Below, piece by piece: positions 40,708 through 43,668 of a DNA stretch of 64,000 nt. Location: contig NZ_FAOO01000005.1 of the NCBI RefSeq assembly GCF_900070205.1, forward strand, positions 4,512 to 68,511, given 5' to 3'. A program made the position numbers and the translations under genes. Under the pieces are notes generated by a model. The model was not told the DNA's origin, did no database searches, and saw only the letters and a list, made by a program, of their open reading frames with translations. Within the stretch, counting starts at the first letter, position 1; each line of letters starts with the position of its first letter. Source of the DNA: Candidatus Thermokryptus mobilis. GTDB taxonomy: Bacteria; Bacteroidota; Ignavibacteria; Kryptoniales; Kryptoniaceae.

Positions 40708-40736
40708 TTGCAAAATGCATATCAAATTTGTATATT
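40708..40736 (+). promoter_or_regulatory. Predicted sigma70-like promoter of the aroF leader
   Basis: TTGCAA (40708-40713), a 17-base spacer and TATATT (40731-40736), with the same geometry as the promoters before speB and cutA. Transcription would begin near 40743, about 28 bases before the leader ATG. This is the main content of the 342-base gap between yajC and aroF, together with the leader ORF. Confidence 0.55.
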
Positions 40737-40770
40737 TTAATAAACTCATTGGCAAAGAAAGGTTTCGGAA

Positions 40771-40893
40771 ATGGACGATCTTGGCAAGCAAATAAGTTTG
40801 ATTCAACCATCGTTCGTTTCTTACTTTGTTTCCTTCCAAGTTTACTTTTACGCTTACTACTTCGCCCAGTGGTGGCGCAACCACTGGGCATAA
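40771..40893 (+). CDS. Aromatic-amino-acid leader peptide upstream of aroF-tyrA
   Basis: A 40-codon ORF with SD AAAGG 8 bases before its ATG. It begins MDDLGKQISLIQPS. From residue 15 it is dominated by aromatics: Phe15, Tyr18, Phe19, Phe22, Tyr25, Phe26, Tyr27, Tyr29, Tyr30, Phe31, then Trp34, Trp35 and Trp39 before the stop. That is five Phe, five Tyr and three Trp, the three end products of the pathway whose first enzyme is encoded 75 bases downstream. Its Trp codons lie in a perfect hairpin. It is a textbook form for a translation-sensing attenuator. Translation and regulation are inferred, but the composition cannot plausibly be chance. Confidence 0.85.
   Translation: MDDLGKQISLIQPSFVSYFVSFQVYFYAYYFAQWWRNHWA
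40864..40889 (+). promoter_or_regulatory. Hairpin in the aromatic leader (attenuator element)
   Basis: GCCCAGTGGT (40864-40873), loop GGCGCA, then ACCACTGGGC (40880-40889): a perfect 10-bp stem spanning the Trp codons and ending two bases before the stop codon. There is no T-run directly after it, so it is not a simple terminator. The loop GGCG can pair with CGCC at 40913-40916, which precedes TACTTTTAAA. The following RNA is C-rich and G-poor, as expected of a Rho-loading region. An ACCCCT segment there could also partly mask the aroF SD. Confidence 0.7.
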
Positions 40894-40968
40894 ACACCCC
40901 TCACAACAATATCGCCTACTTTTAAATTCATATCAAATCAAAAACAAAATTAAAGGAGGTAAAAACAA

Positions 40969-41991
40969 ATGATCGTTGTTATGGAACCTGATGCAACCGA
41001 AGAGCAAATCCATAATGTGATAAAAGTTCTAAATGACTACGGCTTTGATGTCCACAGGTCAACTGGCGTTTCAAGGACAGTGCTTGGGGCCATAGGTGTA
41101 AAACCAGAATTTGATCACAGAAACATTCAGCTTTTACCAGGGGTTGCAGAGGTTTACAGAGTAACCGAACCTTATAAACTTGCGAATCGTGCTTTTAAAC
41201 ACGAAGGCACACTCATTGAATTAAAAGGCGTCAGGATAGGAAGTAATATTGAAGAGGTCGTTGTAATGGCTGGACCTTGTGCGGTTGAAAGCGAAGAGCA
41301 AATTTTCACAATCGCTAAATTCGTTGCCGAACAAGGAGTTAAAATTTTAAGAGGTGGTGCATTTAAGCCCAGAACTTCACCTTACTCATTTCAAGGGCTT
41401 GGCGAACAAGGGCTTAAACTTCTAAGAAGTGCCGCTGATGAATACGGACTTCTCGTCATAACCGAGGTGCTTGATACAAAAGATATCCAACTTGTGGCAA
41501 AATATGCCGATATACTCCAAGTAGGTGCGCGAAATATGCAAAACTTCGCCCTTTTAAAAGAACTTGGAAAAATTGATAAACCAGTTATGTTAAAACGTGG
41601 GATGTCCGCAACAATTGAAGAGTGGTTGATGGCTGCTGAATACATTCTCTCAGGTGGTAATCACAAAGTTATCTTATGTGAAAGAGGAATAAGAACATTT
41701 GAAACATCAACAAGGAATACGCTTGACATAAACGCCATACCTGTGGTCCACAAAAAAAGTCACCTCCCAATAGTTGTTGATCCATCTCATGCAACAGGGC
41801 TAAGGGATAAAGTTATACCAGTTGCAAGAGCAGCTGTTGCTGCTGGAGCGGATGGTTTAATAATTGAAGTTCATCATCAACCAGAAAAAGCAAAATCGGA
41901 CGGACCTCAATCACTTTACTTTGAACAATTCGTCCAACTGATGAAAGAGGTCAGGAAAATAGCCGAAGCAATAGGAAGAAAAATAGCATAA
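40969..41991 (+). CDS. aroF: 3-deoxy-7-phosphoheptulonate (DAHP) synthase
   Basis: First enzyme of the shikimate pathway, joining PEP and erythrose-4-phosphate. The 340-residue thermophile-type enzyme has an N-terminal ferredoxin-like regulatory domain ([20 protein letters not shown]), the feedback-binding part in Thermotoga-type enzymes. The KDO8P/DAHP synthase barrel follows: [11 protein letters not shown] with metal Cys104, [17 protein letters not shown] and [29 protein letters not shown] is near-perfect. It is preceded by the aromatic leader and followed after 7 bases by tyrA, giving two levels of end-product control. Confidence 0.95.
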
Positions 41992-41998
41992 ATTTACT

Positions 41999-43081
41999 AT
42001 GTTTAGAAAAATTTCAATTATCGGAACAGGCTTAATTGGCGGTTCGCTCGGTTTGGCATTTAAACAAATGAGAAATTTAAAAGTAGTCGGTTTTGACACT
42101 AATACGCAAGCGCTTGAAAAGGCAATTGAAATAGGCGCAATTGATGAAGGGATAAGTTCAATAGAAAACGCTGTGAATGATTCTGATGTGATTTTCTTGT
42201 GTACCCCACTTAACGAAATTATAAAGTTGCTTCCGTTGGTTTCAAAATTTGCCAAACTTGGGACAATAATAACAGATGTTGGTAGCGTAAAAAAAGCAGT
42301 GCTTGACGCGGCAAAAAATATAAAAAACGATGTCTATTTCATCGGCGGACACCCAATGGCTGGCTCAGAAAAAAAAGGCATTTCATACGCTGATCCTTTT
42401 CTCTTTCAAAATGCCGTCTACGCACTTTGCCCAGGTCCAGATGTGCCGATAAAAGTCATAAACGATTTAACAATTTTGATAAAATTAACCGGAGCCAATG
42501 TCGTATTAATTGACCCAGAAATTCACGATAAAATAGCTGGATACATAAGCCACTTGCCACAATTGCTCGCTGTCTTGCTAGTTAACACCGCTGGCGATTT
42601 GGGAACTGAATACCTAACACTCGCTGGCGGTGGCTTTAGAGACCTTACAAGAATAGCATCAAGCCAATTTGAAATATGGAACGATATAATTTCACTAAAC
42701 AGAGAAAAACTCCTTGAGGCAATTGATGCCTTTATAGTTGGACTTAACAAATACAAGTCATATCTTTTGAACAACGAAATTGAAAAATTTAGAGATGAAT
42801 TTGACAGGGCTTTCAAACTTAGAAACGAGATACCTTTAACCGCGAAAGGTTTTATACACAAACTATATGATGTTTTTATCGTGGTTGAGGATAGACCCGG
42901 GGTTTTGAGCAAAATTTCCACTGCACTTTATGAGGGCGGGCTAAATATAAGAGACATTGAACTCCTGCGCGTCAGAGAAGGCATTGGTGGAACTTTCAGA
43001 ATTTCATTTGAAAGCGAAAGGGACGCAAACAAGGCGATTGAAATAATAAAATCACTCGGTTACAAGGTCTTCACGAGATGA
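41999..43081 (+). CDS. tyrA: Prephenate dehydrogenase with C-terminal ACT domain
   Basis: Converts prephenate to 4-hydroxyphenylpyruvate for tyrosine. The 360-residue product starts with the Rossmann motif ISIIGTGLIGGSLGLAFKQM. Then come DVIFLCTPLNEI, the catalytic-site GGHPMAGSEKKGISYADPFL and HDKIAGYISHLPQLLAV with the conserved His. The last 75 residues are an ACT domain (FIVVEDRPGVLSKISTALYE), a likely tyrosine or phenylalanine sensor. It is in an operon with aroF and overlaps the next gene by 4 bases. Confidence 0.94.
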   Translation: MFRKISIIGTGLIGGSLGLAFKQMRNLKVVGFDTNTQALEKAIEIGAIDEGISSIENAVNDSDVIFLCTPLNEIIKLLPLVSKFAKLGTIITDVGSVKKAVLDAAKNIKNDVYFIGGHPMAGSEKKGISYADPFLFQNAVYALCPGPDVPIKVINDLTILIKLTGANVVLIDPEIHDKIAGYISHLPQLLAVLLVNTAGDLGTEYLTLAGGGFRDLTRIASSQFEIWNDIISLNREKLLEAIDAFIVGLNKYKSYLLNNEIEKFRDEFDRAFKLRNEIPLTAKGFIHKLYDVFIVVEDRPGVLSKISTALYEGGLNIRDIELLRVREGIGGTFRISFESERDANKAIEIIKSLGYKVFTR

Positions 43082-43668
43082 TTGAAAAATTTTTGAACAT
43101 ATTCAAGAAAAGAAAAGAAGAGGAAACGCTTGAAATAAAATTAACACCACGAACACTCATTGTCCTATGTGGCGTTGCCGGTAGCGGTAAATCAACCTTT
43201 GCCAAAAAATTCTTCAAAAAAACACAAATCGTCTCGTCCGACCATTGCAGAGCAATGATATCAGATAACCCAGCAAACCAGGCGGTTTCAAAACATGCCT
43301 TTGATTTGTTTTATTTCATCATTGAAAAAAGATTGCTCGTGGGTCGGCTCACCGTAGCGGATGCAACATCTCTCTCCAAAGAAACAAGGCAAAAACTGAT
43401 TGAAATCGCAAGAAAATACGGCTTTAAAGTCGCAATAATCGTCTTTGACATACCCATAGAAATCTGCATAGAAAGAGACCAAAAAAGAAAACGGAAAGTA
43501 GGTGAGGAAGTGATCAAATATCAATATGCAAACTTCATTGAAGCAAAGAAATCAATACCGACGGAAGGATTTGACGAAATTTTCATCCTTAACGAAAAAA
43601 CGCTTGACACTGCAATAATTAAAATCATCCCTACTCAAGCAAGTCCAAATAACTCAGCAAGTTTTTGA
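43078..43668 (+). CDS. P-loop kinase resembling polynucleotide kinase domains
   Basis: A 196-residue AAA_33-type P-loop protein. Walker A is LCGVAGSGKSTFAKK, then IVSSDHCRAMISDNPANQAV with the acceptor-binding Asp, VADATSLSKETRQKLIEIAR, and lid Arg residues in CIERDQKRKRKVGEEVI. This is the pattern of the kinase domain of bacterial Pnkp and of zeta-toxin relatives. No ligase, phosphatase or antitoxin is adjacent. The substrate (RNA/DNA 5' end or small molecule) is open. It ends the aroF operon and overlaps the convergent membrane-protein gene by 34 bases. Confidence 0.75.
   Translation: MIEKFLNIFKKRKEEETLEIKLTPRTLIVLCGVAGSGKSTFAKKFFKKTQIVSSDHCRAMISDNPANQAVSKHAFDLFYFIIEKRLLVGRLTVADATSLSKETRQKLIEIARKYGFKVAIIVFDIPIEICIERDQKRKRKVGEEVIKYQYANFIEAKKSIPTEGFDEIFILNEKTLDTAIIKIIPTQASPNNSASF

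Follow-up and report, generated by a model that had tools for sequence, protein, structure and literature searches.

Organization of the aroF-tyrA Locus

The window, a stretch of 64,000 nucleotides of contig NZ_FAOO01000005.1 of the hot-spring bacterium Candidatus Thermokryptus mobilis, carries a promoter-like pair, a 40-codon open reading frame (ORF) and a perfect 10-bp stem between a divergent yajC and the gene pair aroF-tyrA (Table 1). The ORF, whose translation is MDDLGKQISLIQPSFVSYFVSFQVYFYAYYFAQWWRNHWA, is separated from aroF-tyrA by 75 nt. An AAA_33-type P-loop ATPase/kinase gene (43078-43668) lies immediately 3' of tyrA and is a neighbor of aroF-tyrA across the genus. The Phe leader, Trp leader, and T-box families of Rfam had no match above the gathering score anywhere in the window.

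TABLE 1. Positions, in the window, of the features that make up the aroF-tyrA locus.
Feature	Coordinates	Strand	Basis or remark
Promoter-like pair, TTGCAA-17 nt-TATATT	40708-40736	+	Same element precedes 18/18 Kryptoniales leaders
SD-like purine-rich stretch 5' of leader ORF, weak	40755-40762	+	Sequence; not conserved
Leader ORF, 40 codons (ATG..TAA), 5 Phe + 5 Tyr + 3 Trp	40771-40893	+	
TCCTTCC element within leader ORF; may act as anti-SD (GGAGG) or as another RNA element	40831-40837	+	
Control codons TAC TTT TAC GCT TAC TAC TTC (YFYAYYF)	40843-40863	+	
10-bp stem with 6-nt loop over the last 9 codons of the leader; holds 3 Trp codons	40864-40889	+	
Linker, C-rich and G-poor; candidate rut	40894-40950	+	
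aroF Shine-Dalgarno (SD), AGGAGG	40954-40959	+	GGAGG kept in 7/7 genus members
aroF, DAHP synthase type I-beta with ferredoxin-like domain	40969-41991	+	PF00793, PF18152, NF006421
tyrA, prephenate dehydrogenase with ACT domain	41999-43081	+	Adjoins aroF in 18/18 loci

The initial annotation had pointed out 13 aromatic residues (5 Phe, 5 Tyr, and 3 Trp) among residues 15-39 of a 40-codon ORF starting at 40771, and these counts proved to be exact. In a 464-kb sample of the organism's own genome, which was used for a chance estimate, this ORF had the highest aromatic content of 194 small ORFs located in upstream gaps, with 12 aromatics in its last 25 residues versus nine in the runner-up. As judged by sequence comparison, conservation of the leader in two families (see below) settled the question against a chance origin. 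A reading of the ORF as an ordinary protein was also rejected, and its N-terminus was not conserved. Covariance model searches returned no significant second copy of the element in any genome of the genus beyond the aroF leader, and no convincing leaders were found 5' of trpE or pheA across the order.

Conservation of the Leader in Kryptoniales

A leader was present upstream of all full-length aroF-tyrA loci examined in the order Kryptoniales, seven from the organism's own genus and 11 from a sister family; the sister-family genomes G014, with a partial copy, and G015, with only a paralogue, stand outside this count of 18. Each of the 18 leaders contained Phe, Tyr, and Trp codons as well as a stem across its last codons. 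The conservation of ORF and aromatic codons in relatives, on which the initial annotation had made its proposal depend, thus extended over two families. Leaders of the genus mostly ended in FYAxYFAQWWRNHWA and those of the sister family in YSYFYFPHRGI, YSYFYFPQWGN, or similar sequences. Alignment columns 33-34 of the genus, which hold the last Tyr-Phe pair, were invariant as amino acids, while their codons alternated between TAC and TAT and between TTC and TTT. Since only synonymous third-base changes were seen in an invariant pair, the residue, and hence the tRNA, appears to be under selection, which indicates that Tyr and Phe codon identity matters in this genus.

Matches to the promoter consensus were about as frequent as expected (41 observed, 42.8 expected), and a consensus match was by itself uninformative. 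The element TTGC...TATATT did, however, occur at a constant position upstream of all 18 leaders, in line with the promoter proposed in the initial annotation. The SD sequence proposed with it fared less well: a weak purine-rich stretch was found at 40755-40762, but it was not conserved and was absent from locus L006 and from the sister family. In the latter, the leader start codons (ATG, GTG, or TTG) were located 6-7 nt past TATATT at all 11 loci (L009-L019) and these leaders are therefore probably leaderless.

A Stem Across the Last Codons of the Leader

The arms of the stem, GCCCAGTGGT (40864-40873) and ACCACTGGGC (40880-40889), form 10 perfect base pairs around the loop GGCGCA, exactly where the initial annotation had placed a stem containing the three Trp codons, and a single base separates the stem from the leader stop codon. 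Predicted folding energies were -20 kcal/mol at 37°C and -9.6 kcal/mol at 70°C. In the alignment of seven genus genomes, all 70 cells of the stem were paired, with one G-U pair and one compensatory double change, CAG/CAC to CAA/CAT, in which both substitutions were synonymous. Alignment of aroF upstream regions, suggested earlier as a check, therefore yielded both conserved aromatic codons and a double change in the stem, but covariation alone was weak evidence: eight of the 10 pairs did not vary in the genus, and the observed covariation was reached by 72 of 500 shuffles. Stems of the sister family were unrelated in sequence (CCCCC-ACC-GGGGG) and occupied an equivalent position with respect to control codons and stop codon.

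Pairing of the 3' arm with the linker, as in an antiterminator, was considered and rejected; the linker contained neither a special complement of this arm nor an antiterminator-like partner. A proposed pairing of the loop sequence GGCG with CGCC at 40913-40916 was likewise abandoned, as it was not conserved and CGCC was absent from L004, L006, L007, and L008.

Readout of the Leader

The initial annotation had noted that no T-run follows the stem and that the RNA downstream is rich in C and poor in G, and had considered a non-intrinsic readout plausible. All three statements held. No U-run after the stem, and no competing antiterminator before the first gene, was found at any of the 18 Kryptoniales loci. 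The linker of the window contained 16-17 C versus one G and had the highest value of C minus G among 83 upstream regions. Summed over the seven linkers of the genus, the C:G ratio was 111:15, with C far above G in each of them; the bias was mild in the sister family. Rho was found in 19 of 20 genomes, and U-run terminators at gene ends looked scarce (two of 39 in a strict scan). A readout via Rho was favored because the linker is C-rich and G-poor, Rho is present, and U-run terminators looked scarce.

These observations are most consistent with regulation of aroF-tyrA by ribosome sensing through a leader peptide, encoded by the 40-codon ORF, and with an OFF step that is not intrinsic and most likely depends on Rho, a reading to which we assign a probability of roughly 0.8. 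Upon a shortage of charged Phe-, Tyr-, or Trp-tRNA, the leading ribosome would stall in the aromatic run or at the Trp codons of the stem; without shortage, it would reach the stop codon and depart, upon which the stem would close. The position of the ribosome would thereby determine which state is adopted by the RNA that links the leader to aroF, and with it whether transcription of aroF-tyrA proceeds and its message is translated. Most likely, Rho would bring about the OFF step by acting on the linker and on the untranslated start of aroF, with or without concomitant masking of the ribosome-binding site of aroF, a coupling that has been proposed for Escherichia coli toiL-topAI. Three elements of this scheme are our inference: that ribosomes stall, that starvation serves as the ON signal, and which step accounts for OFF.

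We regard a purely translational mechanism as rather unlikely. In it, TCCTTCC or a local stretch of the linker would pair with the aroF SD as long as the leader is free, and stalling at the aromatic codons would place a ribosome over this element and release the SD. CCnnCC of TCCTTCC was invariant in all seven genus members while the encoded amino acids changed (S/P, F/L/Y, and Q/R/H), which suggests that here the RNA rather than the peptide is selected and matters. It was also the best SD complement in six of these seven, at a constant place that a stalled ribosome could reach, and toiL-topAI offers a worked precedent (PMC12121999). Five to six pairs would, however, be weak for a thermophile, and in the genus, pairing with the SD did not exceed that of dinucleotide shuffles (combined p 0.15). 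In simulations of ribosome stalling that covered the loci up to L017, accessibility of the aroF SD was unshifted in all seven genus members. SD complements of 9-12 bp occurred in L017-L019, and the pairing signal of the sister family was uneven, its combined p of 0.001 being driven by three close relatives and L012; in this family, the element lies so far 5' of the control codons that a stalled ribosome would not reach over it. Masking of the aroF SD by ACCCCT, as initially suggested, was not upheld, the best linker partner in the window sequence being 40914-40926. The aroF SD of the sister-family loci L010-L013 and L017-L019 is directly preceded by a small hairpin (CCGGAGC..GCTTCGG, CCGAAGTC..GACTTCGG, and similar), in which apparently compensatory changes were seen. 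Overall, Rho-dependent or ribosome-binding-site control of aroF-tyrA is favored, and the folding tests did not separate the two.

Tryptophan Codons and Loss of Tryptophan Synthesis

Among the genomes, G005, a member of the genus that is 97% complete, was the only one to have lost trpE, trpD, trpA, and trpB; trpE, trpD, trpA, and trpB1 were not found in it and were present in the other genus members searched. A G005 contig was syntenic with the trp region of the Thermokryptus genome, and exactly trpD and the trpF-trpB pair were missing from the block. A diverged, decaying trpC with altered active-site-like motifs remains (G005:C7:78325-80306, L262); the motif reading of this trpC and the assignment of a 208-aa ORF as trpF are putative. 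G005 thus has the appearance of a recent tryptophan auxotroph with cleanly lost trp genes, which fits the patchy amino acid auxotrophy known in Kryptonia (PMC4737851).

The leader of G005 alone contains a stop codon (TGA) after its first Trp codon, by which two of the three Trp codons are lost and the stem is left intact. Its Phe and Tyr codons, as well as tyrA and pheA, are retained. In this single event, the control codons of the leader tracked the pathway present in the cell, as a Trp sensor would predict. Sensing of Phe and Tyr is well supported, and sensing of Trp is supported by one clean loss event (n = 1). The cautious initial reading, that the leader senses all three aromatics, accordingly drew support from the conserved ORF, the Tyr and Phe codons, the loss of Trp codons, and the stem.

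Sensing of Phe and Tyr only, with the Trp codons as a by-product of selection for a G-rich RNA stem (TGG repeats), appears rather improbable. The Trp codons of the genus do sit in a stem that is kept at the RNA level, TyrA makes only Tyr, leaders of class-level relatives and of KSB1 contain Phe and Tyr codons without Trp, and the aroR leader of Corynebacterium glutamicum responds to Phe (PMC11802643). Against such a by-product, the stem of the sister family mostly lacks TGG, yet one to three Trp codons occur elsewhere in all 11 leaders of that family, and in the genus Trp codons were lost only in the genome without Trp synthesis, where the stem stayed.

A more far-reaching proposal can be made tentatively, at somewhat less than even odds: that one leader integrates all three aromatics, that the stem on its own last codons and a Rho-loading linker together form a readout which is neither an intrinsic terminator nor a known fold masking the ribosome-binding site, and that the set of amino acids sensed evolves by gain and loss of codons along with the pathways of the cell.

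Sensing of a free amino acid by TnaC-like arrest of the nascent peptide at the stop codon is very improbable: the nearly invariant C-terminus YFAQWWRNHWA of six genomes would fit such arrest, but this invariance is accounted for by the stem, the C-terminus of the sister family differs (YFYFPHRGI), and that of G005 is YFARW.

Comparison With Known Systems and Relatives

A leader peptide with Phe and Tyr codons is known upstream of a DAHP synthase gene. In C. glutamicum, the aroR leader before aroF contains Phe-Tyr-Phe, and stalling induces the operon at Phe limitation, according to the account of Neshat et al. (2014) in PMC11802643 and to PMC4046766. In contrast to the Kryptonia leader, aroR has no Trp, is described as acting by transcription attenuation, and belongs to an unrelated phylum. 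The initial remark that no precedent could be named therefore needs qualification: a leader before DAHP synthase has been described (PMC11802643, PMC4046766), and none was found in which Trp had been added. The enterobacterial pheL and trpL are likewise short leader ORFs that contain codons for the amino acid under regulation; unlike the Kryptonia leader, each serves a single amino acid through a U-run terminator and antiterminator and does not precede a shared first enzyme.

Parallels for the readout are provided by two other systems. For the toiL uORF before E. coli topAI, stalling occurs at several positions, and the proposed model has Rho downstream and no intrinsic terminator; toiL senses antibiotics rather than aromatic tRNAs, and its masking of the ribosome-binding site was studied experimentally, whereas masking was unsupported by folding here (PMC12121999). 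Conserved cysteine leader peptides of Mycobacterium cys operons likewise contain the regulated codons, lack a terminator hairpin, and come with a polypyrimidine stretch as proposed Rho site, but they involve one amino acid and no conserved stem at the end of the ORF (PMC1262725).

Attenuators have been predicted before aroA-I-beta/tyrA operons, for instance in Thermus thermophilus and Bacteroides thetaiotaomicron (predictions by Merino in PMC1173090). These involve the same gene pair as in Kryptonia and are terminator/antiterminator predictions; the account in PMC1173090 describes no leader peptide for them. T-box riboswitches precede orthologous aroF genes in Clostridia (L040, L048, L071, L090, and L099). 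They precede the same aroF type as the Kryptonia leader and sense uncharged tRNA, but bind the tRNA directly, without a leader ORF. The authors of a survey in 2010 knew of no leader-peptide system that had been shown beyond Proteobacteria and Actinobacteria, to which they added Firmicutes (PMC2965389).

Among class-level relatives, families f12 (L026, L122, and L123) and f18 (L136 and L141) have textbook Phe/Tyr leaders (e.g., MNSRFVDLFYFYFYFTYGYF) before an aroF paralogue. These leaders contain no Trp codons and are followed by a GC-rich hairpin and a T-run, with antiterminator partners visible in L026 and L122. In KSB1, locus L039 has a leader (...YYYRYYYYFSY...) without Trp codons and a U-run terminator before chorismate mutase-aroF. 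Since U-run terminators were seen in these relatives and at none of the 18 Kryptoniales loci, the sensor appears to be present and the intrinsic terminator to be absent in the order. Although a leader and a hairpin are present and true intrinsic attenuators precede aroF in these relatives, a classic attenuator at the Kryptonia locus is extremely unlikely, given the missing U-run and the position of the stem within the ORF, since a ribosome that completes the leader would unfold it.

The best name for the element is an aromatic leader-peptide regulator with non-intrinsic readout, a kind that is known, to which Trp is added without a precedent that we could find. Control of the first step in aromatic amino acid synthesis, which all products share, usually falls to several isozymes or repressors, each dedicated to one product. 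At this locus, one 40-codon ORF seems to adjust a single DAHP synthase to Phe, Tyr, and Trp alike. In the open-licence literature searched, neither a leader with codons for all three nor any leader peptide from Kryptonia was found to be described, and the present results would extend leader-peptide control of amino acid synthesis to this group. The genus itself offers a ready natural test, in which an apparent Trp auxotroph has dropped Trp codons and kept the RNA stem. Together with the Phe/Tyr attenuators of class-level relatives and KSB1, the leader of Kryptonia points to a layer of regulation that is widespread in this region of the tree and has gone unannotated.
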